Shown here piece after piece: positions 22,211-51,756 of a stretch of 64,000 nucleotides of DNA (its first letter is position 1; each line of letters starts with the position of its first letter). This DNA is from Rhodamnia argentea (taxonomy: Eukaryota; Streptophyta; Magnoliopsida; Myrtales; Myrtaceae), in assembly GCF_020921035.1 (NCBI RefSeq), contig NC_063156.1:22244283-22308282 (forward strand), written 5' to 3'. The notes below the pieces were generated by a model, which ran no database searches, had not been told where the DNA came from, and saw only the letters and a list, made by a program, of their open reading frames with translations. Made by a program: the position numbers and the translations under genes.

Positions 22211-22219
22211 CAGTAGATT

Positions 22220-23149: not shown

Positions 23150-23403
23150 AAAAAAGGCAAAATTTCAAAGAAGGGCCCGAAGTCCTTTCATTTTCTCAAA
23201 TAAAGGTCCCAAGTGAACTATGTTTCAAATAAGAACTTGAAGTACTATCATTTTTTCAAACTAGGGCATGAAATGAACGTTATTTCTAATAAGGGCCTGA
23301 AATGGCCATGAAATCTCAAAAAATGGCTTGATTTCAAGGGCATTTCGGTCTTTTTCCTTATTTGATTTTTTATTAGATTTTTCTTTTTTCTAATTCCTTA
23401 AAA
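23150..23403 (+). mobile_element. Foldback element, family A, left arm only
   Basis: Left arm with the 'aagggcctgaaatggcc' type units. The core and right arm are missing because the duplication junction lies inside the element. The matching element in unit 2 (27893-28823) is complete. Confidence 0.8.
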
Positions 23404-23430
23404 ATATTTAAGAAATACGGGTTGGGTATG
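23404..23430. other. Filler at the duplication junction
   Basis: 27 bp absent from both units at this place. Together with one flanking base it matches the reverse complement of about 29019-29046 with three differences by eye. That suggests templated insertion during repair, or a remnant of the same repeat. Confidence 0.65.
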
Positions 23431-23836
23431 GGTTTGTTCAACCACGTAAATTTGCATTGCAAAGTTATCTTCTTTTTATGTGCAAACTTCCATCAGCATC
23501 TAAATTTTATTCTAGAGGATTTTGCTATAGTGCACAAATGCACCCGTGATCATCTTACTGGGAAACAAAAACATGTTTAAATTAGCACGTCGCTCTTTAA
23601 ATATCCTGTGCTCAAACCATCATGAAAACTACATTTTCGGAATTAAACTAGCTTTCATGTTTTTATCTAGAAGTATTAGTACGGGTTTATTAATGTTAAC
23701 TAATTTGTGAATTTAGAGTTGAATGTTGATGAATTAGTCAGTTTCCTTTTCTAGTTTCAGTTTTGTCACATCTTGTCACTTGTTAACAGTGGCATGTAAA
23801 TGCTTGAATGGGCAATGACCGATATTCTTCTCACAG

Positions 23837-25171: not shown

Positions 25172-25881
25172 TTGTGATAGTATAAGTCTGTTTTGGCCTC
25201 TAAATAATTGAGATATGAACTGTTCTGTCTCAGCCAGTGTAGATATTTGCATCAGAATGCTAGAAACTACCATGTTTATAGGATGATCTATGCTTTTACA
25301 TTTGGTTCTTATATCTGAGAATTTGGTACTGCAAATATGCATCTTAATCTATGATCTACTTAAGAAGTTAGCTCTTCCATTTCCCTTTTTTTCAGTCAAT
25401 AGTAAGATATCTTAAACCTCACACAGTTGCTTTGTGATATGCTCCAACAGATAAGGTTCATTTTGTTGTGCAAAACCAAGTCAGGCAATGCTATTTTCAG
25501 AAGATAATTAGTGATCAGGGTAGAACTGTTCAAACCGGTCTCATTACATCTTCAGCACTTCTTCAAGAAATTTTTCCTCTGAAGAGTCTTAAATGGTGGT
25601 TTACATTGTGTCCTCGCTGCGTGTTTGTAACTATTTTCGATGCTATGCTTGTGCTCCTGAGCCAGATCCGTCGTAAACCTATACCGTTCATTGAGAGCAT
25701 TTGGTTTCTTAAAGTTCCTTTCTTTTGAAAATTTGATCCGGGAAGATGAGACTTGATGGACTTGTTTTTGCCCTGAAAGTAACGATGAACAGGGCAACTA
25801 AATGAATGGTCATTATTTCATGTTCTTGAGGGTGCTCTTATTGCCGACTACTTCTGAGACATATAACCTCTGGATAGTAAA

Positions 25882-26870
25882 TCATTCAAGTGCTTTCTCA
25901 TGGCCATCCAGATTGAGTTTACACGATACCCAGATCCCGAGAGAGAATGCTAAAGCAGCCGTAATGAGAACCCCCCGGTTCCTGTTAAGCATCTTCATTG
26001 CGCTGCTGAAGATGCTCCTCTCTTCTCCCCATTTCTCAATGATCTCATCGCTGTAGCGACATTCTCCGCTAGGTTTTCTCCCTCTCGCTTTGCTCTCGGG
26101 TAGCTTGTGGGCTTCGTCGTGGCTTTCTTTGTTCAAGTCTTGCTCATGGTGCACGGTCTCTTCCTTCTCCACCACGGTTGTAGCTCGCTTAGACACCGTC
26201 ACGGTGAGAAGTCCATCTTCAATTCTTCTGCTCGTCTTAAGGATGTCCGAGTTCTCCGGAACTTTGAAGGTTTCTTCGAAGAAAATGTACTTGTTGTCTT
26301 CCACCAGTCTTTCCCCGCTGACCGTTATGTAATCGGCGCTATCGGTCTCAATCTTGATGTCATCTTTCTTGAAATCTACAATTTCTCGAGTGTGGGAGGA
26401 AATCAGATCAAAACCCAGCATCATCAGTTTAGGCTTGGAGGGAAATTCTAACAGCTCACGAGGATCATTTTAGATGTAATTTCTCAAAGTCTTCTTCTAC
26501 ATAAAGTGGTTATGGGAGACTGATTAGAACATGAACTTCGTGATCTCCTCTTATTTTTCACTTCTTACGTGGGAAGGAATAGAGCGAAAAATCATAGCAC
26601 TCCCAGAATAATGTTGCCGCGAACAGCTCTAAGAATATTTTCAATGAAAGCAGGAATGGTCGGCACTTTGCCGAAACTGAACCCATCATATCGAAACATG
26701 GTGTTTCGCTGCATACAAAATGGTTAAAGAAATCATCATCACACTGTTTCCATACCAGGAAGATCAACAAGGAGGTAATGGCAATTCGAGTCCTCGATCC
26801 ACCCGGCAGAAGGTTTGAACTCTTCAACCGTATGGTCTTTGGAGCACGTTCTGGCTGCAATACTCGCCAT
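25882..26870 (-). CDS. RTM2-like alpha-crystallin domain protein with membrane anchor, copy 2
   Basis: Exons 26870-26756 and 26375-25882, 202 residues, same structure as copy 1: N-terminal EFKPSAGW, FKKDDIKI, ITVSGER, DGLLTVTV, a charged linker and a C-terminal hydrophobic segment (VLITAALAFSLGIW). By my count 19 of 202 residues differ from copy 1, spread along the protein, including loss of the Pro in the TVTVPK strand end (now Ser). The frame, splice sites and TATA box are preserved, so it is probably functional. A role in restricting virus movement is only inferred from the RTM2 family name; many members have other or unknown roles. Confidence 0.85.
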
Positions 26871-26937
26871 TTTTTCCCGAAGCTTTTCGAGATTAACTCG
26901 AGCTTCTTCGTGTTATCTAATGGTGTTATGCCGAGTT

Positions 26938-26946
26938 CATTTATAG
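26938..26946 (-). promoter_or_regulatory. TATA box of RTM2-like copy 2
   Basis: CTATAAATG on the minus strand, at the same distance from the ATG as in copy 1. Confidence 0.6.
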
Positions 26947-27892
26947 CAGTAGATTGCTGTTGGAAGATATAGTGTTCTGGATGCGTAGAAATACAAAGAT
27001 AGATTTCCTTGTAAGATTAGATAATCTTTTATTCCAAACCTATTCATCTAACCCTAAGAACAGATGTGTCAAACTCAAGCAAAGGGACGATTCTTTGCTT
27101 TCCTTGTGAAGAAGTACAAGGGTGCATAAACCCGCGTCGGGCTACCTTTGATCCCGCTTGATCGAACCAAAGAAAGATGGGACGAAAAATCAATGTGAAC
27201 TCGAAACGAATGTTTGTAATTATCCATGGATAGAAAGAATGACCGAGAAACATCACGCATTTGTGACTTGTTATTGAATTGGAACATCCTAAGAGATCCC
27301 CAGGTGTAGTTTTCAGTGAAAAGTGGTATTTTTTTTTTCCTTCTAAATTTTTGTCCTTTTTCTTTGACCAACTATATTCTTTCTATTTGAAGCTATATTG
27401 CATTGCAAAATTAAAATAATATCTAGATTTGGGCATGTTGACAGATATTGCACTTTATTCAGTCTCAACACATTTTTGGGTCTTCACAATCTATGCTTTG
27501 CCTCTGTTTATCCGACTCTAAATCCACAATTCATCAAACAAGAGATTGGATATGACATAATCCTTAAATTTCTTATCATATCCTATCTAGTCTTGTCTTT
27601 ACTAGAAATCCGGACGACCATATGCAACCTCACTTCTTTTCTTTTTTCCCTCTTTTGGTGCATGATTAAATGTCACAGGAGACTTAGATAGGTTCATGGG
27701 CTGGAAATCTGGGAAACAATCAGGTTGTTTATGGTTTGATTGCTCGATTGGGCCTTGAGCTTACTAGTTTTAATTGGGAACTCAACGGACTAGGCCGATT
27801 TACGTGTAGAATCGGTCTTGATCGGGGCATTAACTTTTTCCTAAAAGGTTTTGCAAATAACAAGTGAACAACTTGTAGTAAAAAAGGAAAAA

Positions 27893-28823
27893 AAGGGAAA
27901 ATTCTAAAGAAGGGCCCGAAGTCATTTCATTTTCCCAAATAAAGGTCCCAAGTGAACTATGTTTCAAATAAGGGCATGAAGTATTATCATTTTTTCAAAC
28001 TAGAGCATGAAATAAATGTTGTTTCTAATAAGGGCCTGAAATAGCCATGAAATCTCAAAAAATGGCCTGATTTCAAGGGCATTTTGGTCTTTTTCCTTAT
28101 TTGATTTTTTTATTAGATTTTTCTTTTTTCTAATTCCTTAAAAATTTAAAAAAATTTAAAAAAAACATACAGAGGCGAGAGGGCTATCCCTCTTGCCTCG
28201 GGTCGCCGCCCCACCGCCGGGGGAGGGGCAAACGAAGGTCGGCGAGGTCGCCAAAGCCTTGGAAAGGGCCGACGACCTCGCAAATCTTAGGTGAGGGCCT
28301 ACTGGCCCTCGCCAAAATAGGAAGAGGGTCGAACCCCTCTTCCGGATCCGGGTGGGGGGTCGCCGGCCCCTACCCCGACCCGGGGAGAGGTGGCGACCCC
28401 CACCCTAGTCAAGGCGAGGACCGGTGACCTCGCTAGGTCATGGGTGGGGGTCGTAGGCCCTCACCTTTGGTCGGCAGGATTGCCGGCCCGAGCCGAGGCG
28501 CCGGCGACCTTGTCGGCCTTTGTCACCCGCTTCAACCCCCCACCAAGCGTGGGCCGGCCGCCACGGGTGGGAGGGGCAGCTCTCTTGCCCATGTGGCTAT
28601 TTTTTAATTTTTTAAAAATAGAAAAAGGAAAAAATAGAGAAAAAATAAACAAAATATCAAAATGGGAAATGACGAAAATGCCCTTTTTGAAACTCTATGG
28701 CAATTTTAAGTCCTTATTTGAAATATACTATGCCACTTATTGTTCTTATTTGAAATAAAATTTACTTGGGGACCTTTATTTGAGAAAATGAAAGGACTTC
28801 AGGTCCTTATTAAAAAATTTTCC
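27893..28823. mobile_element. Foldback element, family A, complete copy
   Basis: Left arm about 27893-28110, GC-rich core 28170-28590, inverted right arm about 28670-28823. Both ends read GGAAAATT inward. The word AAGGAAAAA occurs on both sides (27884-27892 and 28824-28832) and could be the target duplication, though the left side is low-complexity. No transposase frame. Confidence 0.75.
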
Positions 28824-29273: not shown

Positions 29274-30600
29274 AAAACTGCAAGAACTGTTTTCCTTGGC
29301 TAGGTCAAAGAGATGGTGGGACCCACCTTCAAAACAAAAGGGAGAAGGTTGAAAAGTCAAGAAAAGTAAAAAAAAAAAAAAATTGTTGAAAAGTCTATAA
29401 AGAAAGAGAAAAGTGCACGTACTTAAAGGGAAAAGAAGAGAATAGAATGCAAAGAGAGAAAGAGAAAACACAAATAGAAAGGGAAAGAGGAGGAAAGAAA
29501 GAAGGAAAAAAAGAGGGAAGAAGACAAGATAGGTTTCGCATACACGCCACGGAGGCTTTGTCGTGTCTGATCAACTACGAATCGCAAGCTCGATAAGTGC
29601 TCGCATCCTAGGTTCATCTAATCGGAGTAATATTTTGGGTTAGGGCTCAAATTCAAAGCCTAGTGAAATTCAAGCCACGAAGTCCAATTTTTGAGTTTTT
29701 GAGTAGTGGGATATCATGAAAAGGGTGGATTACGGTTTTGTAGAGCTGTGGGGTTTGATAAGAGTCAATTTGGGGCGACGGTTTGGTTGGAGCGAGAATT
29801 GAAGAGTTTCGCGTTGTGGACGGATTGAATAATCGCTTTGGTTGTTCGATTTGTTGGTGCGTATAAGTTATTTTATTAGCATTTCAGCTGAGTTAGCCGA
29901 TTTGTAGTTGTTGATAGCATTTTGCTTAGTTTTGATGTCGATTCTCATTTAATTGTTAGGATTACGAGATCGATGGCTCATTTAGTTGCATGTCGTTCAT
30001 TTTGGGTATTTCCAGGTGAGTGGTGCTATCTATTCTTTGAGTTTGTAAGCTCATATTTCAAAAGCGATGTGGATTGAATATGTTATGAATTATGAAATAA
30101 CATTTTTATTGCATAAAAATATAGATCGAGCATTTACTACTTCTTGGCTATTTGCGAATAATTTAGAAAATGTGTTATGCAATGTATTATGAAGAAATAT
30201 ATGTATGTATCGCCTTGCGAACTAGTTTTATGGAATGAGTTATGAGATAATTTGAAAAACGTTTTGCGAAAAATGTTACGGAAGATTATATGACTAGTTC
30301 TACAAAATGATTTGAGAAATGCTTTATCGTAAGTATTTCTAGCGGATGAATTTTGTTTATGGAAGGATTATGAGCTTCGGTTTGTGAACCCAATTGAAGA
30401 TATACATTTGATTTGGCTTTGTGGTTTTGGAGGATACTGGTATTAGTTTGTTGGTGCTCAATATCACTGTGAACCCATTGAGGGGTTTGTGGGTATGCAA
30501 ATCGATTTTAAGATATATCCTTATGGGTCGAGCCACCAGTATTATAGGTGGAGACCTTGTCAAGGGAGGAATCTTGGTCGTCTTTTGTCACAAGCGTTAT

Positions 30601-31154
30601 GGCTGCGTTTGGTCGTCGGGATTTCTGGTTAGGATAGGATTGGATAGGATAGGATAAGAAATCTAGGGATTTGGCCATATCCTATCCATTGTTCGGTGAA
30701 CCGAGAGATTTAAAGTCGGATATTCTCATATCCTATCATATCCTGCATTTGGTAGAAACCGTATATCAATATAAAGAACATATATGCCCCTATGTGATGC
30801 TCATGAAATATTCCGATCTTATTACTATAAAAATAACGTTCTCATACAAAAAAAAAACTTGAAAATATACACATTTTATTAGATTTTCAAACCTCTTTGC
30901 AAAAAAAAATAAAAAAATAAAATGAAAATAGAAACAAATGAGACAAGCAAGTTGTAATCATTCTAAAAGTTAACTTTTATACGACGGATAAGAGAAATCC
31001 TATCCGACCTTATCCTACCCCCTCCCATCGGATTTTTTTATTCGGGTTATATCCCTTCTATATCCGACATTATACTATCCGGGACACCTACCAAACACGG
31101 GATAGGATAAAACATATCCAATCCCGAGTTTTATACAGACGACCAAACGCAGCC
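30601..31154. mobile_element. PIF/Harbinger-like MITE
   Basis: 554 bp with perfect 17 bp terminal inverted repeats GGCTGCGTTTGGTCGTC, and TAT on both sides (30598-30600 and 31155-31157). The corresponding site in the right LTR (about 45058-45066) is uninterrupted and has a single TAT, which proves insertion and defines a 3 bp target duplication. The interior is AT-rich with 'ggataggatatgagaa' type words and no transposase. Confidence 0.92.
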
Positions 31155-31271
31155 TATGTGTGATCAAGGTTAGATTCTTGAGCACAAGATTGGTCAATAG
31201 ATGGACCATTGGCACGAGTTTTTGACTAGATTGGTCAATGGAATAGATCGTTGATGTTTTGTATTGCTATT

Positions 31272-34084
31272 TGTTGACACCTAAATTTTGATTTTTAGAA
31301 AATCATTCATAAAAATGAGAGTTATTCATAATTCTCACAAAAAATAAATTTTCGTGCATTGCATATTTATCGTCATGTCGGGTAGGTCCAGAGATGAGTC
31401 AATTAAGCATGATTCCAACGGACGACCGAGTTAAAATTGACCCGAAAGTCATTAGGGAGGGTGCGGAATTTTTTACTATGATTTTGGACTCAAAACAGCC
31501 CGTTTGAGATCTTAAAATTGCAAAAAAGGCCTTAATTAATTACCCATTTTATTAGTTAAGGTCTAGGTGAGTCCGGAATCACAAAACGAGCCCATAAAAT
31601 ATTGAAAAATAGCCCATTTCTCCCTCCTCATTCATTTGGCCGAAAATTGTAAGAGTCTAAGTCCAATAGGACTCTTCAAGATCAGAATTTTCGATCTAAC
31701 GATCGATATCTAATTGGAGCTTTTGATCTAACGGTTTAAACCCTACAACTCAAAGCCCTAGTTTTCTCTATAAATACATCTTTATGCCTAGGGTTAAAGG
31801 GGGATTTTTTGGATTCAGAAAATTGAGATTCACGTGAGATTGAGGGAGACCAAGGAAAAGGCACACACAGCTGAGAAAAGGCAAGCGCAAGAAGAGGAGA
31901 ACGAGGCGCGATCGAAGCTGCTGTCCATAGGCGTTTTTGCATCGAATTGGTTCGAGTTTTGTCTCGCGAACTAAGGTAATCTTCGTATACTTTCAGCCTT
32001 GATTCAAGCATGTTTTTTATCTTGTTTTTGCTGCTATTTCACACTAAAAACCATCGCTGTTTCATGCTGTTTAATGCTAAATTCGCCATGGTTTGATGTT
32101 TGATTTTTACTGCCATTAACGATACAAAATTGCTGCTGTTTTTGCCTCTGTTCAATGTTGCTATTCGCTTTATTCGCATGCTGTTTCGCTGCAATTTTCT
32201 TGCTGAAATCATTGTTGTTTTCACGTTGAAATCACCGTTGTTTTAGCACTTTTTTGGCTATTGTTTTAGGCAGGAATTCCTGCTGTTTAGGATGTTTTTG
32301 CATGCTGTTAAGTACTGGAACTTGCTGCAGTTTAATGACGGAAGCTACAACTGTTAAATGTAAAAACTTGTTGCTATTCATGGTTAAAATCAGCCGCTGT
32401 TTAGGGTTGAGGTTCGCTACCGTTTAGCGTTCGATTTGGCCGTCCCTCGTGTCGTTTGTTTGCTGATGATCATTTTTTTGGCACTTGATTTTCTGATCAT
32501 ATGCGACCTTTTGCTTGATCCATCGATATGCTGAAGATTGCTTGTTTGATTTGTTTATTTGGTGAATCTGATCACTTAACTTTTTTTCGAAATTGAGAAT
32601 ATATTGAGCATGTTATCTTCGGTCGATATATATTTCTGGATTTTAATTATCTTGCGGTTCGGATTTCGAAGGATCCGAACCACAATCTTTATCTTGAGCA
32701 TTTACGTATAATCTGATGATCCTTGGAAAATTCGAAAATTAGAGCATTTAGGGATAAGAACACACTGGATTTTGAGGCAATCATATCTTGTAGAATATTG
32801 ATATATTTTCGGAATATTCAAATAACTCAAGATTCAATCTGATTTTTTTTTTAGATATTGAACGCATCTTTAAAATTCGGGAAATTATCTGATATACTTT
32901 GAAAAATTTCAGAAGATAATCTTTCTAATTTTTAAAAGATGTCGATCCTTTTTGGATAGGAGCTTATCTCCTTGAAAATTTCAGAATCCCTTAAGGATTT
33001 TAAAAATTCAATAAATATTTGCACATCTTTAAACAAAACTGCCCATAACAAATGCTCCCTAATTGTGCCTTGTCCCTCGGAAAACGTACATTAAAGGCAA
33101 CATATGACTTCAATCTCGAAGTACGATCGTGCCCGTACGTGTGAATTAGATATCAAATCATCGATCTCGAGGAGCGGATCGCTAATTCCTAAATAGAATT
33201 TCAAGGTTTGCCCTATGTATATAGGGACGACGGTAATTCTATAATATATTCACTTACTAACCCTAATCTCGGGGGATGTTGTGAATAAAAATCGGAATTT
33301 CGGATTTAAAGGTGTTTTATGGGCAATATTATTTATTTTTGTTCAAATTTCATTGTTTTCATGGTTTAAATAAATTCCTAAAAAATCCCAAAAAAAGATG
33401 TCACGTTTTCTTAAGCTAAATCACATTTCTCTTCACTTTTTGCATGAAAATAATGTCTAATAAAATTAGGACTTTGAGAAATCAATTTCTTAAGTTAAAT
33501 TAGATGTTACTTCACATTAGAGTAGTTTTTACCTTTATTTTTTCATGACTCCGAAAATACACAAAAATATACCAAAAAAAATACCATCCACGTTGCATAG
33601 CATTATAGTTTAGTTTGCATTATTATATTTTCCTTGTCATGCATATTTGCCACGTCATTATGCCATGTCACGTATTTTTGCCATGTCATTACATCTCACA
33701 TGTCATATAGGTAGATTGCATTAGCATTGCATTTAATAAAAGAAAACCCCAAAAAGAAATTTAATTCAAATCATCAAACTAAGGTTTTTTCATGAAAATC
33801 GGGTACCGAAAGGGCATTAATTGAAAAGTTAATGTAACCAAGTCCCCGAATCCATTTGATCTCTGGTTCGTATGAAATAAAGTATTTTCTCCCGAATACT
33901 TTATTTAGGTTTCTAATCTACCTACCATAAAAGATTAGTGGCGGCTCCAATTTAAAATCTTGGCATGTAATTAAACCTAAGTTGCGATTCGGTAGGACTT
34001 GGGAGAGTCCGAATTATGTTAGTTAATCTAATTAACCTAATAATCCGTTAACCTAAAAAAAAAAAAAATTTTTAGGTCGCGACA
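31272..34084. mobile_element. Solo LTR, 2.8 kb, Tat/Ogre-like
   Basis: Begins TGTTGACACC, ends GGTCGCGACA, and is flanked by CTATT on both sides (31267-31271 and 34085-34089). The right LTR of the host element lacks it. 'gattagtggcggctcc' near the 3' end and the gcgaca terminus are features I associate with Tat-lineage LTRs. A TATA motif (CTATAAATA) is near 31769. 32030-32450 has degenerate 'gctgttt' repeats. No internal region remains, so it is the product of LTR-LTR recombination. A related fragment is at 55290-55860. Confidence 0.88.
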
Positions 34085-34641
34085 CTATTATTGAGGGAAT
34101 TAGTTTGTTGTAAAGATAAGCCTTGTTTTTGACCTAGTACATATGCTATATTGAGAATTTCTAATAAGTATGTAGTTTTGTGGAAGATATAATATGTATT
34201 TGGCATTACATGTATACGACCTGCGGTATTTGAGAGTAATGCGTATCGTAGTGTTGTACTACTCACGTGACCGCTTTCTTTATTGTGTAATTCATTGTTC
34301 TTTTTAATTGTACGCGTACAAATATTAGCTGGAAGTGAATAACTTATATTCGAAGTTGTACGTATATAATGAATCGAAATATTGAGTTTCGTTATAGTTT
34401 GTAAATATGTATCGTGGATGCTCGATTTGCTTAGAAGATATACGCACTACTCACTAAGCTGTGGTTGCTCACCCCCCTTTTTATTTCAATCTTTCCAGGT
34501 TCCCCGGTTAGTAGCCAATAGAACGAGAGCGATATGATGGGGACTTTGAGATTTGGATTTTAGGTGGTTTGAGGCTGCGTCCTTAAAGCGGAAGACGGCC
34601 ATGTCATTCCCCCATACTTGATGGATTCGGGATGTGATATT

Positions 34642-34656
34642 TGTTAGTATCAGAGC
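34642..34656 (+). other. Primer binding site, tRNA-iMet type
   Basis: Contains GTATCAGAGC just after the left LTR, the common plant retrotransposon PBS with one or two changes. Confidence 0.7.
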
Positions 34657-34904
34657 TTAGGTTGTGATTTTTGGGTATAGATTCTATTGGACGTTGTGAG
34701 CTTGTGTGGTAATTTATAGTGCAATAACCTTTTGTTAGGTACTAGGATGTACAACTCATTTGGGTCCTAGGTAGTCATCGATTCTAATTTAGAGAAGTAT
34801 GCTTAGTCTTGTAAGGGATAACAAAGGCAAGCGAGTTGTTACATTTGATACCGACAATGTATCTTAAGGTTTTTGATGTTTGTTTTGGCGAGAAGATAAA
34901 GGGG

Positions 34905-35875
34905 GTCATTGTGATCTAGGCTCTGACTTGCAAGAAGTAGAGAACACTAGATAGGGGTCTTAGTACTTTATGAAGTTGAGAACAGATATGGATGGAATGA
35001 ATTTTTCAAAGAAAAGGAGAAGCCTTTAAGGTGGCTTGTCCTAGACCAATTCGATGATATCCTTGTTAAGATAATTTTTGGGTTTTCCATCCATTTCATT
35101 TTATTAACCTATATGCATGGAAGTGAGTTGGGTGATTATGGTATTGAGACATATGTTGAATTCTTTATGGTTATGTTCATTTTGGTAATCAATGCCATTG
35201 TCGGCATGTGGCAAGAAACTAATAACGAAAAGACACTTCATGCCCCAAAAGAGAAGCAATGTGAATTTGGAAAAGGTCTGAGGGATGGGTACTTTGTTCC
35301 TAATTTGCCTGCAAGGGAGTATGACCCAGGGATATATAGTGAAGGTCGTCTTTTCTTAGTTGCAGGATTGCCAATTGAGGTCGATCTCAAGGTCTTAGTT
35401 GAAAGGATGGGAGTTTCGGATGCTAGGAATAAAATTGATGATGCAAGGTTTGCTACAAAACTACTTAATTAATAGTAGATCGATGAATTTAGGCTGTTGT
35501 GATTCGTAGAACAAATGATCAAGGCGAATTGCCATTTCAGAGTTTGATTGCATTCGAAAATTAGTGAGTGTCATTGCCCGAGAGCCAATAGGGCGCAATC
35601 GCCTTCTTGTAAAGGGAGCTGTGGATAGCTTGCGGATTATAGTTAACATTTATAATCGACGGATGGATCTATTGTTCCGATTGATGAACCTTGCAATGAA
35701 TTATTGCTTTCGGGACTTATGGAGATATCTTCAAAGGCGCTGCAATGCTTGGAATTAGCATATAAGGATGACCTCGGAGAATATTCGGACTACAATAATG
35801 ATAGCCATCCAGCCCTTGGAAAGTTATTGGACCCCGCCTTCTACTACTTGGTTGAAAGTGACATTTATTGTTAAG
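34905..35875 (+). pseudogene. Captured fragment of an ER-type Ca2+-ATPase (ECA1/ECA4-like)
   Basis: Translated pieces match the P-type ATPase in order. First comes the cytoplasmic N-terminal part with VEKRRERYGWNE-type sequence, then the membrane segment with HGSE, VNAIVGMWQE and EKTL, then VPNLPARE. A jump follows (the phosphorylation site DKTGT is deleted) to YSEGRLF and KVLVERMG. A further piece has VSVIAREP, GRNRLLVKGA and LAYKDDLGEYSDY, and it ends near LLDPA. Frameshifts and stops interrupt it. No intron-like insertions are seen at the joins I could follow, which hints at capture from spliced RNA, but the internal deletion makes this uncertain. It lies in the sense direction of the retrotransposon. 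Confidence 0.85.
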
Positions 35876-35939
35876 TATGATATCCAATCTACTAACATGT
35901 CTATTAGAGTTCATGCTGTTAGTAGTTAACAATGTATGC

Positions 35940-36275
35940 ATAGTAAGCTTGTAGTAGGTAATGGTCTCATGACAATTACAAGAAGAGAGAGCATTAGAAG
36001 TTTTTCTTTTTGAATATGCCGAAGAGGCTGAGGAAGAAGAAGATATTAGTCTATGGACGAAGATACGTATGCGCTTGATGGAGAATGCTCATGTCCTCAA
36101 ATGCATGCAAGATTTCTGAAGTTGCTCGAAAGTTTCTTCTAAATATCGTAATTGTTGTATTCAAGGAGCAAGTTGAGAAGGCTTTTAGAGAGGGAACAGC
36201 ACGGCAAAATGCATGCAACATAATTGTCCGTTTTGCCTTGAAGTTGCTAGAAGAGTGTATGCATATTGCTTGCTA
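35940..36275 (+). pseudogene. Captured fragment, probably of an NST1-like (stress response) protein gene
   Basis: A coding-like stretch with frameshifts gives CMQDFL, then KEQVEKAFREGTARQNAC and RFALKLLEE. I associate this with plant proteins annotated as stress response NST1-like. The identification is from memory of one conserved block and is less secure than the Ca2+-ATPase call. It has stops and cannot make a protein. Confidence 0.5.
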
Positions 36276-36720
36276 AGGGATTATCCTATTACAAAAGCAC
36301 TATGGTTGTATGGATAGATCTATTAGGTAGAGCAGGATATTTAGAAGAGCTTGAAAAGATAATCAAGAGCTTACCTTATGAGCCTAATGCAATATATTGA
36401 GCTCTTTCTTATTTCTGGTAGATACTTCAAGGATGTGATAAGAGCGGAGAGAATTGTAAGCAGAATAGTAAATATGGAGTCCCGGAATGATGAGAACTAT
36501 GATATGTTGAGAAACTTATATGTAGCGGAGTAGAGACGGACTAATGCAAAGGAAATGAAGAGGTTAATGACTGTAAATGGAGAAAATAAGGAAACTAGTT
36601 GCGGTGTTATTGAATTAACGGGACAAAGAGTGAGCTTTTGGTTGGAAACAAATTGCACCCACATTATGAGATTATCCATTCAACATTGAGTTAGTTACTT
36701 ATGCATAGGAGGAGACAAGT
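36276..36720 (+). pseudogene. Captured 3' fragment of a PPR protein gene (E-type end)
   Basis: With shifts between frames it reads DLLGRAGYLEE, IIKSLPYEPNA, then a CR..G-like part, RNDENY, LRNLY, AKEMKRLMTVNG and NKLHPHYEI. This is the standard order of the last PPR motifs and E domain of plant PLS-class PPR proteins, which act in organellar RNA editing. It lacks the rest of the repeats and any DYW domain and has several stop codons. Confidence 0.75.
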
Positions 36721-38170
36721 CATTGATCAAGCACAATGTTGATGGTAATGCTATGCGCATGATGATTAATGGGGTTTTGCATGACACTTCATTGCAGAGT
36801 TGATAGTGGAAAGAATTTCCGCTCCTCTTGATTTAAGTCTATGGTGGCTTTAGTAATAAATCCCCATATTTGCAAGATTCATTGTCAACGACTTTATTCC
36901 ACTTTCACCAGATTACTACAACACCGTGAAAATCTAATACTTTGGATAAAAACCTCAAGTCATGGATAACGCCATGGACATTGGATTCAACCTGGCCGAA
37001 GCTATAAGCGTAAAGTTGTGGGAAGAATGTGCAGGGTGTCGTTTCCCATTATAAGCTTGATTCTCATGAGAGATATAAGACGACTTGTGGTTTATAGGTT
37101 GGAGTGATAGGTATGATATTCATAATCATAGCTTGTGAATGTTTTTTAGTAACATGTTAAAGAGCTTTGTGGAACTAATAGGCTAGGTCAATGTTAGTTG
37201 TAATATTGATTGATATTATGATGCAAGGCGAGTGCGTAAATCATTGATATAAGAAGTGATAAGTGATGAATCTTTATGTTAGAGAATTGAGGATTCGTTG
37301 AATTTAATGGAAAATACATTCCAATCTTGGTTATCTAGGAAGTTATATGTATTCGATATTAAGTGATGATCTCTTAAGTTGTGATTTTTCTTGATAAGAT
37401 TTATGTAGTCCTTGTTTGGAAACCTTACATTCTAGAGAGAACTATGGTCAATTTGAAGAAATTGATCTTCATCTTAGTGTAATGATTATAAGTACATAAT
37501 AGTCATTTTGTGATGATTTTATAGATCTTGTCTTGGGTGAATTAAGAGTGAATTATCTAGTTATGTTATGTAGGCAAGTTTTGAAATAGTGTTATCAATA
37601 ATCTCTTCTCGTGGTGTTAGTAAGAACACAAAAGCATTTGCAAGTTTTTGTGCGATAGATAAGAGTGAGTTGCACTAATCTTTAGGTGGATGATGTCGTA
37701 TTCTTAAGCTATGTATGCAATTGACGTGAGTGGAATGTTGAAAGGAGAATTGATGACTTGTGAAAATCCATGTTGTGATGTATTTTGAATGATGGATATT
37801 TTGTGGATTGTGTTTGAAGTGTCGACGGATGACGGTGAACTTTATGATAATGGGGAAAATTATCGTATGAGATTTCTTACGTTAAGTGATGATCTTGAGA
37901 GATATTAGAGACTATGTAGAAATTAATATAAGAAAAACAGTGGTGATTAGATGCTAGACTACTTCGTTATGTGATCCTTCAAGCATGTGAAATTAACTTA
38001 CAAATTTTGGTGGATTGGTTCGAGGATAGTGATGTGAAATGGAAGACTAAGCAATGACTGCGAAATTAGAAATGCCTAGAGAATGAGATGCAAAAAGGGA
38101 TTTTAGGATTCCGGTGATGCAAAAAAAAAAAAAATTAATAAGAAAAGAGGACAAGTTTTCATTGTTGGTG
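36721..38170. other. Unassigned interior of the large retrotransposon
   Basis: No recognisable pol. The stretch 36880-37060 gives scattered coding-like words on the plus strand (for example FIVNDFIPLSPDYYNTVK and NLAEAISVKLWEE) and may be another captured piece that I cannot name. The rest is AT-rich with many stops. Confidence 0.4.
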
Positions 38171-38179
38171 ATATGTCCC

Positions 38180-38580
38180 CATTCATTCAGAGTGAAAAAG
38201 AAGATCTTGCAGAAAGTTCATAGATTTGATTCTAAATTCAGGGGAGATATTAGGATGTAATGGAATTATACAATTTACTTATGATATAATCAAATGAAGA
38301 ACAATATTGGAGAATTTGTTGATCAATATTTGATTTGTCAGCAAGTGAAATTGAGCATTAACAAATGCATGAGCAGTTACAACCTTCTTGAGGTATCTAA
38401 ATGAAAATTGGTCTATCGAGAGCGCGGAGCAATAACAACGTTATATCGTCAATTATTAATTGATTGAGCAAGGCCATTTGAGAACCTGTGATGGAAGCAA
38501 AATGCAAATACCAGCATTTGTTTGAAAGTTGAGGTTAAGTTCAAATTTCGAGGACGAAATTTCTTTTAAGGAGAGTAGAA
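38180..38580 (+). pseudogene. Remnant of Ty3/gypsy integrase and 3' end of pol
   Basis: LICQQVKL and a following NLLEV-type stretch match the zinc-finger region and the start of the core of gypsy integrases. The final part contains the 'ttcgaggacgaaatttc' motif that precedes the polypurine tract in many plant gypsy elements, followed by a purine-rich 'aaggagagtagaa' directly before the right LTR. Confidence 0.7.
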
Positions 38581-39560
38581 TGTAAGAACCGTTTTCCTTG
38601 ACTAGGTTAAAGAGATGGTGGGACCCACCTTCAAAACAAAAGGGAGAAGGTTGAAAAGTCAAGAAAAGTAAAAAAAAAAAGTTGAATAGTCAATAAAGAA
38701 AGAGAAAAGTGCACGTTCTTAAAGGGAAAAGAAGGGAACAGAATGCAAAGAGAGAAAGAGAAAATGCGAACAGAAAGGGAAAGAGGAGGAAAGAAAGAAG
38801 GAAAAAAAAAGGGGAAGAAGAGAAGATGGGTTTCGCATATACGCCATGGAGGCTTTGTCGTGTCTGATCAACTACGAATTGCAAGCTTGATAAGTGCTCG
38901 CATCCTAGGTTCATCTAACTGGAGTAATATTTCGGGTTAGGGCTCAAATTCAAAGTCTAGTGAAATTCAAGCCACGAAGTCCAGTTTTTGAGTTGTTGAG
39001 TTATGGGATATCATGAAAAGAGTCAATTATGGTTTTGTAGAGATGTGGGGTTTGATGAGAGTCAATTTGGGGAGACGGTTTGGTCGGAGCGTGAATTTAA
39101 GAGTTTCGCGATGTGGACAGATTGAATAATTGCTTTGGTTGTGCAATTTGTTGGCGCTTATAAGTTATTTTGTTAGCGTTTAAGCGTAGTTTAGCCGATT
39201 CATAGTTGTTGATAGTATTTTGCTTAGTTGTGATGTCGATTCTTATTTAATTGTTAGGATTACGAGATCGATGGCTTGTTTAGCTACATGTCGTTGGTTT
39301 TGGGTATTTCCAGGTGAGCGGTGCTATCTCTTCTTTGAGTTTGTAAACTCGTATTTCAAAAGCGATGTAGATTGAATATGTTTTGAGTTATGAAATAGCA
39401 TTTTTATTGCATAAAAATATAGATCGAGCATTTACTACTTCTTGGCTATTTATGAATAATTTAGAAAACGTGTTATGCAATGTATTATGAAGAAATATAT
39501 GTATGTATCACCTTGCGAATTGGTTTATAGAATGAGTTCTGAGATAATTGAAAAACGTTT

Positions 39561-40079
39561 TGTTGTAATATAACAAACTCACGAAGCACAAATCGATTAG
39601 TGTTCAAGCCCAAGGCAATAGCTCGCGCACGATCGAAATACTAGAACGTCCCTCACGTCCTTTTCTCTTTCTCACATGGCTGCTCTTCGCCTTTTTTTCC
39701 CTTGGGCGGCTTCGGTCTTGTATTGTGCGGCCTCACTCTGCACAACCTTTTCTTTTTGTCCAGAGAAAAGTAACCTAAAAGCAACTCACTCTCTTTTTAT
39801 TTTGCTTTTCTCTCTCTGACAAAACTTGGCCCCACAATTTCATACACATATAACTTACGAAGGCTTTTCTTCCCTTTTGAACTCTCCGGGGCCCACAATA
39901 ACATAATAAAAATAATATATATGTACCTCTTTTTTCGTCCCGTAGTGCCAATAACAAATCTGGAGCAAGAAGAAGGTTTTCGCTGCACGCGTATGCGAGG
40001 ATTGATTTTCCTTTAATAAACCGATTTAACAAATCGGTACTTATCCACAAACAATTTTAAACTCGAGATATATTTAACA
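39561..40079 (-). repeat. 3' LTR of Copia 1
   Basis: Starts TGTTGTAATA on the plus strand and ends TATTTAACA; same length as its partner. Confidence 0.93.
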
Positions 40080-40160
40080 ATTCTCCACCTTGACTCGATG
40101 TTTGAAGCCAACTCATTATGCTCATTATCCATGCTGCTCTCCCATTGTCCCAATGGACGA

Positions 40161-43100
40161 TCACTCTCTACAGACGCCAATAGTGCTCAAGCAAAACTTG
40201 AGCTTCGCCAAAGGAACCGGCTTAGTCATCATGTCTACTGGGTTCTCTGCTATAGCAATCTTTTTCACAACTTTACCCTTCGCTAAGACATCTCGGATGA
40301 AGTGGTACCCGATATTGATATGTTTCGTTCGCTCGTGATAAACAGGATTATATGCCGGATAAATCGTACCTTGGTTATCACAGTGTATGTTAACACTTTT
40401 CTGTTCTAACCCAAAGTCCATGAGCAGACCTTGTAACTATATCGCCTCTTTCGCTACAAAGGTTAGTGCCATGTACTCCGCTTCAGCCGACAACAAGGCC
40501 ACGTGGTCCTATAAGGACGCCTTCCAACTAACCGCACCCACCGCAAGCGTAAACACATACCCCGCTAAAGATCTGTACTCATCCAAGTCACTTGCATGAT
40601 CAGAATCCACAAAATCAGTGGTCTAACCGCCATCAATGTCCCTCCCGTATACAATACCAACGCCTGTTGTCCCCTTCAAATATTTGAGGATCCATTTCAC
40701 AGCTTCCCAATGAGTTTTACCCGGACGCTTCATATAACGACTAACTACACTGACGGCTTGTGAAATATCGGGCCTAGTACATACCATAGCATACATAATA
40801 CTACCCACGGCACTAGAATAAGGAACACGGGACATATGTTCCTCCTCCTCCTCGACCTGCGGTGATAACTTAATTGAAAGTTTAAAATGCTTCGCTAATG
40901 AAGTACTTACGGACTTCGCTGATCGCATATTAAAACGTGCTACAATCTTCTCAATATATTTCTTTTGAGACAGACGTAATAATCCTGCAAATCTGTCACG
41001 CAAAATCTTCATACCCAATATTTTCTTTGCAGCACCTAAATCTTTCATCTCAAACTCAGCACTCAACTGCCTCTTTAGCACATCAATATCGGACATATTT
41101 TTAGTTGCTATCAACATATCATCAACATATAATAGCAGATATATCAAAGACCCGTCCTCCAATCTCCTAAAATAAACACAACTATCTATCTGACTCTTCG
41201 AATAGTCCTGACTAGCCATGAAAGCGTCAAACCGCTTGTACCACTATCTAGGAGATTGTTTCAGCCCATACAAAGATTTCTTTAACAAGCAAACATGGTC
41301 TTCCTTACCCGGAACAGCAAATCCCTCTGGCTACCTCATGTAAATCTGCTCCTCCAACTCACTGTGAAGGAACGCCGTTTTCACATCAAGCTGCTCCAAC
41401 TCGAGATCCCGTGCAGCAACTAAGGCAAGTAAAACACGAATAGAAGTATGCCTTACCACGGGAGAAAACACCTCATTGTAATCAATGCTCTCCCATTGGG
41501 TATATCCCTTCACAACAAGCCTCGCCTTGTACCTTGCTGCCTCGACACTAGGAATGCCCTATTTCCGTTTATAGACCTATTTACTTCCGACAATCTTCTG
41601 GCTCTTGGGTACTTTAACTAACTCCCACGTCTGATTTCGATGGAGTGATTCCATCTCTTCACTCATAGCTCCTAGCCATTGCGACGACTTAGAACTAGCC
41701 ATCACCTTAGAGTAAGACGAAGGTTCATCTGTCTCCACCTCGTCACCTACGATCAAAGTATACGCAATATATGTATAACCATAACGTACCGGTGGTTTAA
41801 TTTGCCTTCTTTGTCTATCTGCGGCTATACTATACTGCGGTTGTACTGGTTGTTCATTATCACCGTCTTCGGGAACTGCGGCCTCATCTGCAGTCTCAAC
41901 ATCTGTTACTTCCGAGGTCTCCGGAGTCTCCACCTGAAGCTCCACCTCACTACTAACACTGTGATCCGTGCGCTTTGCTGGTTATGTCTCGGAACTCCTC
42001 TGTTGAAGCATTGCGGTCTCGTCGAAGATCACATCTCTACTGATTAGAAAACCGGGTGATGCGGGATCGGTGCACCACAGCCGATAGCCTTTCACCCCAT
42101 GTGCATAACCCGTAAATATGCACTTCTTCGACCTCGACTCAAGCTTACCATCACTCGCATGAACATATGCGGGACATCCGAATATTCGTAATCCGGAGTA
42201 ATCAACGGGTTTCCCCGACCATACTTCCTCCGGAGTCTTCCACTCGATAGCAGATGATGGAGATCGATTAATCGTGTAACAGGCCATGTTCACTGCTTCG
42301 GCCAAAAATTCCTTGCCTATTCCAGCATGCGAAAGCATGCTCCGAGCCCGCTTAAGTAAAGTTCGTTTCTTCCGTTCTGCCATGCCATTCTGCTATGGTG
42401 TCCCAGGTGCTGTGCGGTGTCTCACAATGCCTTCTCTCTCGCAGAACTCGGTAAAATCTTTACCACGTAACTCCATGCCGTTATCGGTTCTCGGGCACTT
42501 GATCCGTTTATCCGATCGCTTCTCAATCAATGCCTTAAATTTCTTGAACCGATCAAACACATCAGATTTGTGCTTTAGAAAGTATACCCATACCTTCCTG
42601 GAATAGTCGTCGATAAATGTCAGCATATAACGAGCACCTCCTTTAGAAGGAACCGGAGACGGGCCCCCGACGTTTGAATGAATATATTCTACCGGTTGCT
42701 TAGTCGAATGAATACCCGTAGCAAACTTAATCCTGTGTTGCTTCCCAAAGATGCAGTGCTCACATAAGTCTAACTTACTTGTCTTCCGACCCTTTAACAA
42801 CTCTCTATCACTCAGCATCGTCATACCCGCCTCACTCATGTGCCCTAGACGCATATGCCATAAACGAGTTAAATCAGAATCTGACTTACCCGATGAAACC
42901 GCAGTAGCTCCTGTCACGGTCTCTCCCAGTAGATGATAGAGAGAACTCACTTTCTTCCCTTTCATCATTATCATAGCACCTCGAAAAATCTTTAGCACTC
43001 CACCTTCAGCGGTGTACTTACACTCGATATCATCGAGTGTCCCCAGAGAAATAAGGTTCTTCTTGAGCTCTGGTACATGCCTCACGCCTGTCAATGCGCG

Positions 43101-44113
43101 CACCACGCCATCGTGCATCCGAATCCGAACTGTCCCTATCCCCACAACCTTACAGGCTGCGTTATTCCCCAACAGAACTCTACCACCATATGCAGCCTGG
43201 TAAGTAGTAAACCAGTTCCTATGAGGCGTCATGTGATAAGAACACCCCGAATCTAGCACCCATTCATCTCCCGACGAACCCGCAGTCACACACAAGACAA
43301 CCTTTGCATCACTAGTGCTCTCTTCAAGAACGTTCGCCACACTAGTTGTGGCTTTACGCTTATCACCTATATTTCTCAACTTAGGACAATCTCTCCTGAT
43401 GTGCCCCTCCTCGTGATACTCAAAGCACTTCACGCGTCCCTTGGACTTTCTATGGCATGACTTAGATCCGCTTTTATCTCTGCTACTCTTGGACCCTGGT
43501 TGTTGCTCTCTACCCCGAATCACTAGTCATCGCGCTAGGCTGTCATCTCGCAACTTTCTTTGCCACTCTTTAGAAAATAAGGCGGACTTTACCTCTTCCG
43601 AGGTAATCGTAGTACGCCCCCGCAATAGTGAATCAGTAAAGTGCTCCCATGACTATGGTAGGGAAGCCAACAACATCATGCCCCGCTCTTCATCATCAAG
43701 TGTCTTACCGACATTCTTCAAATCCATATGAGTTTATTAAATTCATCTAGATGGGTTCTGATAGACGTACCTTCAGTATATCCGAACCGGAATATCCTCT
43801 TCAACATATATAAGCGATTGTTCAAACCCTTCGTTACATAGAGCGCTTAAAGTTTTGCCCACAATGCTGCGGTATCCTTCTCCTTGCCTACCTCTATTAA
43901 CACTTCATCCGATAAATTCAACATGATTAAACTTCTAGCTTTTCTCATTACCACATCATTTTCAGCATCTGTCATCGTTTTGCGCAATACAACCTTGCCC
44001 TCCAATACTACTGTTAAACCTTGAGTTGTCAATAATGCCTCCATTTTAAGGCTCCATAACTCAAAGTTGTTCCTCCTATTAAACTTCTTAATTTCAGCTT
44101 TCACTTCAGACAT
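40161..44113 (-). pseudogene. Gag-pol of Copia 1, disabled by stop codons
   Basis: In order on the minus strand: gag (NNFELWSLKMEALL at the start), zinc knuckle CFEYHEEGHIRRDC near 43430, protease WVLDSGCSYHM near 43260, integrase with HxxxH-CxxC and the D..D..E core, reverse transcriptase with LLLYVDDML near 41120, and RNase H with AEAEYMAL near 40480. Nonsense codons interrupt it at 42393-42395, 41982-41984, 41577-41579, 41559-41561, 41331-41333, 41244-41246, 40623-40625 and near 40439. Each can be explained by a C-to-T or G-to-A transition. Not functional. Confidence 0.92.
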
Positions 44114-44204
44114 AATTGCAATCACAGGATATCCAGATAATAATTAGACAAGCAAAAGCCCCAAATCACAATCTAGAATATCCGAACCTGGCTCTGATAC
44201 CAAT

Positions 44205-44723
44205 TGTTGTAATATAACAAACTCACGAAGCACAAATCGATCGGTGTTCAAGCCCAAGGCAATAGCTCGCGCACGATCGAAATACTAGAACGTCCCTCAC
44301 GTCCTTTTCTCTTTCTCGCACGGCTGCTCTTCGCCTTTTTTTCCCTTGTACGGCTTCGGTCTTGTATTGTGCGGCCTCACTCTGCACAACCTTTTCTTTT
44401 TGTCCAGAGAAAAGTAACCTAAAAGCAACTCACTCCCTTTTTATTTTGTTTTTCTCTCTCTGACAAAACTTGGCCCCACAATTTCATACACATATAACTT
44501 ACGAAGGCTTTTCTTCCCTTTTGAACTCTCTGGAGCCCACAATAACATAATAAAAATAATATATATGTACCTCTTTTTTCGTCCCGTAGTGCCAATAAAA
44601 AATCTGGAGCAAGAACAAGGTTTCTGCTGCACGCGTATGCGAGGATTGATTTTCCTTTAATAAACCTATTTAACAAATCGGTACTTATCCACAAACAATT
44701 TTAAACTCGAGACATATTTAACA
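44205..44723 (-). repeat. 5' LTR of Copia 1
   Basis: 519 bp, adjacent to the tRNA-iMet primer binding site on its left (plus-strand) side. Confidence 0.93.
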
Positions 44724-45779
44724 CGTTTTGTGAAAAACGTTACGGAAGATTATATGACTAGTTCTATGAAATGATTTGAGAAATACTTTATCGTAAGTAT
44801 TTATAGCGGATGAGTTTTGTTTATGGAAGGATTATGAGTTTTGGTTTGTGAACCCAATTGATGATATACATTTGGTTTTGTTTTGTGGTTTTAGAGGATA
44901 CTATTGTTAGTTTGTTGGTGCTCAATATCCCTATTAACTCATTGAGGGGTTTGTGGGTATGTATACCGATTTTAAGATATATTCTTATGGGCCGAGTTAC
45001 TAACATTATGGGTGGAGACCTTGTCAAGGGAGGAATCTTGATCGCCTTTTGTCACGGGCATTATGTGTGATTAAGGTTAGATTCTTGAGCATAAGATTGG
45101 TCAATGGATGGATCATTGGCACGTGTTTTTGAAGAGATTGGTCAATGGATAGACTATTGACAAGTGTTTTTCACGAGATTGGTCAATAGAATAGACCGTT
45201 GATGTTTTGTGTTGATATTACTAAGGGAATTAGTTTGTTGTAAATATAAAACTTGTTTTTGATCTAGTACATATTCTTTATTGAGAATTTTTAATAAGTA
45301 CGTAGTTTTGTGGAAGATATAATATGTATTTGGCATTGTATGTTTACGACTTGCGGTATCCGACAATAATGAGTATTATAGTATTTTACTACTCACCCGA
45401 CCGTTTTTTTTTTATTGTGTAATTCATTGTTCTTTTTGATCGTATGTGTACAAATATTTGCTGAAAGTGAATAACTTATATTCGAAGTTGTACATATTTA
45501 ATGAATCGGACTATTGAGTTTCGTTATAGTTTGTAAATATGCATAGTGAATGCTCGATCTACTTAGAAGATATACGCATTACTCATTGAGCTGTGGTTGC
45601 TCACCTCTCTTTTTATTCCAATCTTTCTAGGTTTCCTACGTTAGCAGCCAATAGAGCGAGAGCGATACGATGAGGACTTTGAGAATTGGATTTTAGGTGG
45701 GTTTAAGGCTGCGTCCTTAGAGTGGAAGGATGATCATGTCATTTCCCCATACTTGATGGATTCAAGGTGTGATAAAAAC

Positions 45780-46482: not shown

Positions 46483-46881
46483 TGTTGAGAATATGATCTC
46501 CGGTGCCACGGCTTCAACCAAGGAGAGAGGAGGAGAAAACCAGAAAACCAGCGGCTGTAATTCCCAATACGTGTCAACTGTTGAGTGAAATTCCACATAA
46601 TGGCTTTCTGTTATGAGCACTTTCTGTTATGAGCGAAGGCAAAGATTCCACGTTCTGTTATTTTGTATTTTCTCTCTGCTTTTTCCCCGTACATGAACTA
46701 TTGCTCCAGAATTGGTTGAGATCTATTCATGTAATATAAATAGTAGTGACGCAAGATAGAAGAGGTGCTCTCGGATGAAGAAAAACTAGACAAGTTCTCT
46801 GTGAAGATGATCAATGGAAGCGTGAGTTCATTTTCTGCAAGTCTCATTCTTCCTTTTCCTTCTATATCTCAAACTTTCTCA
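46483..46881 (+). repeat. 5' LTR of Copia 2
   Basis: 399 bp, TGTTGAGAAT to TTTCTCA, followed by the PBS-like TGGTATCGAGCC. Confidence 0.94.
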
Positions 46882-46947
46882 TGGTATCGAGCCTTTCTCC
46901 CGAGAGCATAGCTGTGTATTCTGGTCTCATTCATTGAGAACACAGCA

Positions 46948-49900
46948 ATGGCAACAAGAACACCACGATATCCTTTTCCTATTCATGTCAACATTGCGAA
47001 CTTCGTTACGATCAAACTTGCTGAAGACAACTTCCCGCTCCGGCAAGCTCAGTTTTATAGATTCATTTGCAGTCAAGAGCTATTCGACTTCATCAATGGT
47101 GAAATTCCACCACCCTCTCGGACGCTACAAGTTGAAGTCGATGGACAAGAGGTAGAAGCGATTAATCCCGATTATGCCGATTGGGTGAAAACCGACCAAC
47201 CGGTGTCTTCATGGATAAGTGGTGCAATTTCTGAGAATATCCTGGGGCTAATCATCGGCCTGGAAACATCTTATGAGGTATGGCAGACTTTCTTGAATCG
47301 ATTCACACGTAAATCGGTAGCTAGGGAGTTTGAGCCGAGGGGGAAACTTCGGGCACGTCAGAAACGAAATAGACAACTATCCGATTATCTTAGGGAGTAC
47401 AAACCGATTTGTGATCAGTTGAATGCAATAGGAAAACCTGTGGATGAAATAACTAAAGTTTTTGGCATCTTGGAAGGACTAGGATCGTAGTATGAAAACT
47501 TCAAAACAACCATGTATTGCTTAAAACCTCAACCTGATTATGATGAGGTGATATCACAGCTAGAAAGATTTGAAGCAAGGCTGCAAAACTACTCCTCGAA
47601 CTAGTTTAATCCTAACTTGGCATATTTTGGAGAAAGAAATGTAGAATTGGAACCGAAGGTAGTAGTTAGCAGAGAACATAATCAGCCTAATCCGGTGTTC
47701 ATGGGACAGAGAGGTGGTATCAGAGGAGGACGTAACTACGGCAGAGGTCGTTCCTTCAACAATCGAAATCGTGGTTATGGTTATCAGGGAAGAAGTCAGA
47801 ATTACGGACCATTTAGTCCGAATCGGGAGCAGGAGGTTCAACATGTTAAACCACGGACTAACACCTATAGTGCGGGACACGGCTTTCGACCTCATGCTAG
47901 TTCATCACGGAGGCATCAAGAGACCACGTCTTATCCCTCTCAAAACTCAGCAACTTATAAGAACCTGCAAGTTGAGAAAGCGACAGATGGAGTTCGCGTA
48001 GCTTGTCAAATCTGTGAACGACCAGGGCATGATGCACTTCGATGCTGGTATCGGTTCGACAACTCTTATCAAGACGAAGCTATCCCTCAAGCTCTAGCTG
48101 CAATGCATCTTGAGGATCCTACGAGCGGTGAATGGTATCCCGACACGGGCGCCACAGCTCACATCATTGCCAATCCTGGTATAATTCATAACCTCTCAAA
48201 GTATACTGGAAATGATACTGTCATGATAGGAAATGGATCATGCCTTCCTATTACTTATACCGGTAATGCATTCTTACATTCTGAGCTTGATGTGTTACCT
48301 TTAAATGATGTACTGGTGGTTCCCGCAATCAAGAAGAATCTTCTTTCGGTTTCGAAACCGACCGATGACTTTCCTTGCTCCTTTGTGTTTGACAAAAATG
48401 GTGTTTATGTAAAGGACAATCGCACCAACACCACGGTGATGCTCGGGAGGAAAGTTGGGGGGCTCTACGGAGTGGATCAGCAGGAAACTAAGGCTCTGTT
48501 TACACGGAGAAATAAGGCAATCGAAGAGGAGATATGGCATCAACGACTTGCTCATAGCAACTCACGGATCTTGAAGCATCTACAACAACAACAAAGGATC
48601 TGCTGCATTAAGAAAGCTTCACCTGTGTGTGGTAGTTGTCAACTTGTCAAAAGTCTTGCACTACCTTTTCCTCTATCAGATTCTGCAATTAAAGTCCCTC
48701 TAGCAAGGATACATTGTGATATTGGGGGTCCATCACCGGTAACCTCATTTCGGGGATTCAGATTTTATGTTGTCTTTGTGGACAATTTTTCTCGCTATAG
48801 TTGGCTTTATCCAATGAAATTGAAGTCGGACTTCTATGATGTTTTTCTTGTGTTTCAGAAGTACGTGGAAAACCAACTTGATCATAAAATCAAAGTGTTT
48901 CAATGTGATGGGGGCGGTGAATTCACTAGTACCAAATTTCAGAATCACTTGGCAACTTGTGGTATTAAACAAGACATTTCTTGCCCCTACACCCCTGAAC
49001 GGAATGGAATCTCCGAGAGAAAACATCGGCATGTAGTAGAATTGGGTCTGACTATGCTCTACCATGCTCGAACTCCACTACAATATTGGGTTGATTCCTT
49101 TTTGACCGCCAATTACATTATTAACCTACTTCCGACTCCAAAGTTGCGGATGGACTCACCTCATAGCAGATTGTTTAAACAAGTGCTGAGCTATGATCAT
49201 CTCGGGGTCTTTGGATGTGCTTGTTATCCCCGCCTCGGACCCTATGCACAACACAAGTTTGATCCTCGCTCCCTTACATGTGTCTTCTTGGGATATAGTG
49301 AGCGCCATAAGGTTTATCGTTGTCCGGTCCCTACCGATGGTAGAATATATATCGGTCGAAATGTGAAATTTGATGAATGTTTCTTTCCTTTTACCAAGAA
49401 ACTAAATAGCGACTATCCTCACTACACTTCTTTGTATCGAAAATGGGTTGATGAGGTAGACTTTCCGGATTCTAACAAGTCGAGCCCAATGCGACACCCT
49501 CCCGTCTGTCCCACTGGTCATTTACAAGAAAGTGGAGTACTGGAAGTTGGCCAAATTCGTGTCCCATACATCACCGAGCAGTGTCGACATATGTCACTGT
49601 CACCATCACATCATACTAATGACCTTGAGGCATCGGGGAGTTCCGCCCCAGATATCGCCATTCCTGTTGATATCCGTGATCAACCAAGTTTTTCCATCCA
49701 TCATCTCTGTGACACCTCTGCTCACCCTATGCGAACTCGCCTCCGATCCGGCATAGTTAAACCAAACCCCAGGTATGCTTGCTTAGCTGAATACAATGTT
49801 CCAAGTGAGCCAAAATCACTTAAATCAGCTCTAGCCCATGAGGGCTGGACTCGAGCCATGCATGAGGAAATGAATGCCCCGCATATGAACCACACTTGGA

Positions 49901-51347: not shown

Positions 51348-51352
51348 GGGGA

Positions 51353-51751: not shown

Positions 51752-51756
51752 TACCG

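Follow-up and report, generated by a model that had tools for sequence, protein, structure and literature searches.

How did pieces of several host genes come to lie in a row between the long terminal repeats (LTRs) of a retrotransposon? This question is raised by a 64,000-nucleotide stretch of the Rhodamnia argentea genome (contig NC_063156.1, positions 22,244,283 to 22,308,282, forward strand; hereafter the window). The window element, at 29279–45774 on the plus strand, is one integrated LTR retrotransposon, recognizable by its LTR pair and by an AAAAC direct repeat on both sides. A sequence-only reading had described its interior (34640–38580) as filled with fragments of an ECA Ca2+-ATPase gene, a likely NST1-like gene and a PPR gene, with pol reduced to integrase scraps. 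The answer that we consider very probable is that a non-autonomous Ty3/gypsy-type element gained several host-mRNA pieces, most likely by template switching of reverse transcriptase, and then moved with the chain.

Donor loci were sought in the R. argentea genome itself (347 Mb in 74 contigs); only the best candidates were scored, and copy counts are lower bounds. The donors found in this way bear out the description of the interior as a series of host-gene fragments. The first, at 34946–35862 (plus strand), is a spliced piece of a SERCA-type Ca2+-ATPase (ECA) gene, with its donor at C3:27840267–27842742 on the minus strand. Its identity was borne out at three levels: the open reading frame (ORF) at 34951–35472 matches SERCA1 residues 34–152 (E 7.7e-18), the same ORF gives Pfam Cation_ATPase_N at 20.5 bits (cut-off 20.4), and the first exon of the C3 donor gives E1-E2_ATPase at 2.9e-50. 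A PDB search with the second ECA part returned no convincing match. About 820 bp of ECA exon are missing, and this gap is bounded by two GGGATATA repeats that lie within one donor exon. Next, at 35877–36299 (plus strand), is a spliced piece from a multi-exon locus at C7:11570296–11571527; that this is a gene piece thus held up, and the name NST1-like, for which database searches gave no match, is used provisionally. Four PDB matches to this piece (best E 0.0077), mainly to designed helical repeat proteins, were disregarded, as were Pfam DUF7746 and Cnd1_N matches below cut-off. Between the ECA and NST1-like pieces lie some 14 nt of filler (35863–35876, plus strand) that look, by eye, like the end of a CBP60 piece carried by a related copy on C4, described below.

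The third piece, PPR1 (36296–36966, plus strand), is the 3′ end of a PPR gene and spans the coding end, with the E motif, and the 3′ untranslated region (UTR). It is 84% identical in DNA to a PPR gene on C9, present there as two inverted loci about 1 Mb apart (C9:10598076–10599291 and C9:11653276–11654490) that differ at one position in 672 bp; the donor gives Pfam E_motif at 7.8e-17, and its stop lies at position 4525 of the C9:10.598M locus (L009:4525). In the piece itself the E motif stays below the cut-off of 27.3 bits, at 20.9 bits (E 0.00044) in a single frame whose stops were taken as X and at 25.2 bits, just short of it, after frames were joined by hand; the proposed PPR assignment is sustained by this motif together with the C9 donor. 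Searched by itself against PDB, the PPR piece had no convincing match. More generally, single plus-strand frames of the interior with stops as X gave Cation_ATPase_N, Cation_ATPase and the PPR E motif, each under its curated cut-off, and hand-joined frames brought Cation_ATPase to 27.1 bits, over its cut-off of 21.7. A fourth match, absent from the sequence-only reading, covers 75 bp (36962–37036, plus strand) at 85% identity to C3:34605875–34605949 on the minus strand, where it falls within the last part of an open frame; it is a putative gene piece.

Whether capture took place at the RNA or the DNA level, a point for which donor intron content had been suggested as the guide, is addressed by the introns that the donors carry inside the captured stretches. 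These number five, two in ECA (87 and 618 bp), two in the NST1-like locus (89 and 722 bp) and one in the 3′ UTR of the PPR gene (534 bp), four with GT-AG and one with GC-AG borders, and all five are absent from the window copy. The exons are joined at the expected splice points, give or take about one base for the first NST1-like junction; for the PPR junction the acceptor matches exactly and the upstream exon is short by a few bases at its end. As judged by joined match coordinates, a copy on C4 likewise lacks both introns of ECA and both of NST1-like, and a further copy on C5 lacks both of ECA. Because all five donor introns are missing, the ECA, NST1-like and PPR1 pieces derive from spliced RNA.

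The orientation and the joins of the pieces bear on the mechanism. All cargo pieces lie on the sense strand of the element, as had been proposed; the Pfam matches fall in plus frames, and none of the three minus-strand frames of the interior gave a match at E 10. The pieces abut with little or no filler and share short stretches at their joins, namely 4 nucleotides between NST1-like and PPR1 (AGCA), 6 between PPR1 and the fourth match and 7 between leader and ECA. For randomly placed breakpoints the chances of such sharing are 0.022, 0.002 and 0.0005, respectively, uncorrected for breakpoint choice. Short overlaps at three joins would be as expected of template switching, and sense orientation, missing introns and short overlaps together fit switching of reverse transcriptase between packaged RNAs. 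In the mechanism that we propose, host mRNAs would be packaged together with element RNA and reverse transcriptase would switch from one template to the other inside the particle, the gene-piece chain would then move as part of the element with a gag-pol-bearing relative helping in trans, and the pieces would be trimmed by deletions at short repeats; we infer the order of captures and the identity of the helper.

Processed, intron-less genomic copies captured as DNA, by read-through transcription or break repair, would likewise be without introns, and dicots are reported to contain RNA-based duplicates (PMC4838847). Among the best candidates scored, however, the intron-less donor matches all lie within LTR elements, and the pieces of the window element abut with short overlaps, which makes this route improbable. 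We regard it as very unlikely that the gene pieces had been gathered by a Helitron, Pack-MULE or CACTA element which then inserted into an LTR element that had lost gag-pol. The captured pieces are without introns, whereas DNA transposons of these kinds mainly copy DNA. A Helitron-type end (CTRR plus 3′ hairpin) occurs at no site on either strand of the interior (50 shuffles averaged 0.12 per strand), long terminal inverted repeats are absent from the interior, where the longest inverted pair is 25 nt at 72%, and the cargo start is common to several LTR copies. In favor of such an origin, a survey of maize counts 1194 captures by Helitrons and 462 by other DNA transposons against at least 189 by LTR elements (PMC2774510).

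The relatives of the window element bear on when the cargo was acquired. The copy at C4:7.24M (L012) contains, besides the leader and ECA, a C-terminal piece of CBP60 (28.3 bits; cut-off 24.2), NST1-like and PPR2, the last with no match to the C9 donor locus and with a best Pfam E of 6.3e-5, below cut-off. The copy at C5:16.18M holds a 5′ LTR, the leader, ECA with the same 820-bp gap, which is not present in the C4 copy, and the start of NST1-like. Other copies with the same cargo, as had been sought, thus exist for ECA and NST1-like. The ECA piece starts at donor-locus position 6743–6745 in the window, C4 and C5 copies alike, and the NST1-like piece at 4297 in the window and C4 copies and at 4304 in the C5 copy. 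In the C4 copy, matches to the 3′ part of the NST1-like donor also occur near the 3′ LTR (C4:7238201–7237944), far from the 5′ exons, as if PPR2 had entered in the middle; a claim of splicing for these 3′ pieces was dropped, the alignment being too gapped.

More distant is element B, at C4:19.12M and C2:25.12M, whose identity to the window element is about 74% in the leader and about 72% at the 3′ end. Both copies are young (LTR distances 0.007 and 0.008) and are flanked by repeats read by eye as GTAAT and GTTGG. A domain scan of the plus frames of the C4:19.12M copy gave a CBP60 piece at 24.9 bits (cut-off 24.2) and PPR pieces with a best E of 2.7e-5 (24.6 bits; cut-off 25). The C4:7.24M copy and element B have in common the CBP60 stretch (84%, 88 bp) and the PPR2 stretch (74%, 344 bp). 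Across these elements there are six distinct gene pieces (ECA, CBP60, NST1-like, PPR1, PPR2 and the fourth match), with donors located for four. With cargo common to several elements, it follows that cargo moved with the elements and that members hold different mixtures.

These copies also bear on whether the pieces were inserted singly into the window copy after it had landed. ECA and NST1-like recur in other copies, where their starts match, and are therefore not later insertions, which is the part of this possibility that can be excluded. For PPR1 and the fourth match it is unlikely: among the best candidates scored no element other than the window copy carries them, in keeping with late arrival, yet ECA, NST1-like and PPR1 lie at similar distances from their donors (0.187 over 914 sites, 0.203 over 419 and 0.180 over 668, respectively), and by eye the joins show neither target duplications nor poly(A). 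Taken as a whole, serial insertion after landing is scarcely credible.

Capture by template switching followed by movement of the chain thus remains the preferred account, and the distances among copies can be read in its light. Between the window and C5 copies the distance is 0.115 for ECA and 0.092 for the leader; between the window and C4 copies it is 0.282 for the leader, 0.263 for ECA and 0.247 for NST1-like. Such like values for leader and cargo would fit a leader, ECA and NST1-like that were already together when the copies split, and a capture that preceded insertion of the window copy. Donor distances of 0.180–0.203 appear to exceed the expectation for capture at the time of insertion (LTR distance 0.106). 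Several points weigh against this account. The leader/ECA overlap was scored with element B as a stand-in for the ancestral leader and so rests on element B, not on a true ancestor. The three copies share only 22 ECA-donor differences among 702 sites, and these are no proof of one capture because change in the donor could also give them. The C5 copy breaks off abruptly within NST1-like (window 35976; C5:16179351) with unrelated DNA beyond, and a search over 38 kb past its end found no more of it. The LTRs of the C4 copy gave a Kimura two-parameter (K2P) distance of 0.325 with transversions equal to transitions, a value discarded as misaligned, which leaves this copy undated. The fourth match is only 75 bp, and for it and PPR1, confined to the window copy among the candidates scored, capture before insertion is probable rather than demonstrated. 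CACTA occurs 3 times in the interior (once at 34945; about chance) and TAGTG 7 times.

What remains of the element's own coding capacity confirms that pol is reduced to scraps. The integrase zinc-binding remnant (38174–38406, plus strand) was recognized against a gag-pol-bearing relative on C6 (L039) by tblastn (E 1e-6, 42% over 36 residues), with DNA matches at 38174–38216 and 38290–38406, and only in this comparison, Pfam giving no match. L039 holds a 1538-aa frame with gag, protease, reverse transcriptase, RNase H and integrase domains, in that order; integrase downstream of reverse transcriptase is the arrangement typical of Ty3/gypsy. Pfam at E 0.001 reported no chromodomain in L039, the feature that ends integrase in the Tekay/Del chromovirus lineage. 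It has in common with the window element the start of the leader (34640–34711), the integrase and the pol end, the last matched at 38471–38580 (plus strand), which includes a purine-rich tract. The region 37157–38580 is largely element-derived, and elements at C11:5.46M and C11:9.56M match portions of its first part (37157–38160, plus strand), in which Pfam recognized no domain; pol in the window copy therefore comprises the integrase and pol-end remnants, plus this domainless stretch. The short ORFs after PPR1 and the integrase piece itself gave nothing useful in Pfam and PDB searches, with one chance-level PDB match (E 0.98). That an L039-like element served as the helper would be a guess.

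The interior opens with the leader (34640–34945, plus strand), common to the C4 copy, the C5 copy and element B. Its primer-binding-site-like start, TATCAGAGC, lies directly after the 5′ LTR and presumably fits initiator tRNA-Met, and the purine-rich tract lies directly before the 3′ LTR. The 5′ LTR (29279–34639) and 3′ LTR (38581–45774), both on the plus strand, were assigned by pairing with each other and are enclosed by the AAAAC target-site duplication (29274–29278 and 45775–45779, plus strand). Two later insertions break the 5′ LTR, a small one with inverted ends, judged by eye (~30602–31154), and an LTR-like one of another family with CTATT flanks (31272–34084); the 3′ LTR is broken by a Copia element (~39563–44722) whose own LTRs are 96.9% identical. 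The K2P distance between the LTRs of the window element is 0.106 over 1978 aligned sites; if 1.3e-8 or 7e-9 substitutions per site and year are assumed, the insertion would be about 4 or 7.5 million years old. The window copy is a decayed relic. Its longest open interior run, 173 codons, is unremarkable by length alone (200 shuffles: mean 111, maximum 197), and Rfam and tRNA scans of the whole window gave no hits.

Elsewhere in the window, 18689–23416 and 23431–28155 form a tandem duplication of about 4.74 kb at 97% identity, each unit with a prohibitin/HIR-like ORF (132 aa, the same in both) and a small-HSP-like ORF, named by eye. A Copia-like element (type by eye) at 46483–51752 has 400-bp LTRs that are 98% identical and a 932-aa frame at 47605–50403, and 27896–28823 and 52541–52893 are imperfect palindromic stretches, detected as opposite-strand self-matches.

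Pack-MULEs and gene-carrying Helitrons are mobile chains of gene pieces, and the window element differs from them in having ends of neither kind and pieces that are spliced. We would give an even chance to the broader proposal that its lineage has captured host mRNAs one after another, with six modules added and reshuffled between subfamilies and cargo-bearing members that moved recently, an LTR counterpart of gene-collecting Helitrons. Donors, missing introns, join overlaps and related copies all occur in one genome, so that capture order, timing and mechanism can be worked out; gene annotation or small-RNA mapping could mistake the element copies for genes. Chimeric transcripts, or siRNA directed at the donor genes, would be conceivable consequences of such a capture.

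Multi-gene capture by an LTR element, as originally proposed, is supported here by donor loci, missing introns and related copies. Its description as uncommon fared less uniformly: a survey of maize B73 lists 425 LTR elements with gene fragments and, under the survey conditions, no single element that had two or more standard nuclear genes (PMC2774510), while section 6 of a report on rice gives 1,343 proteins not derived from transposable elements in 1,318 elements (the totals in its abstract differ), and therefore a few of these hold more than one (PMC3726574). Among the papers listed in literature searches, covered by the openings of their abstracts, we found no described family of multi-gene LTR capture of such a kind. 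Four donor loci for one element and six gene pieces across its relatives, with splicing evidence, are new. Gene-capturing LTR elements of maize, rice and sorghum likewise hold host-gene pieces between their LTRs (PMC2774510, PMC3726574). The chimeric elements Veju and BARE-2 are likewise ascribed to abnormal template switching between packaged RNAs; they gained unknown or other-element sequence, whereas the window element holds a host-mRNA chain (PMC13317346). The best-known plant LTR element with several captured genes is Bs1 of maize, whose interior contains pieces from three host genes, including one for a proton ATPase (PMC13317346). A Bs1-like element has at least two host-gene pieces of RNA origin between its LTRs, and the window element has such pieces from three donors, with all five introns absent. 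It differs from Bs1 in that its ATPase is a SERCA-type Ca2+ pump, in its four donor loci, in its relatives with further genes and in showing no evident long fused frame, the longest open run being 173 codons.

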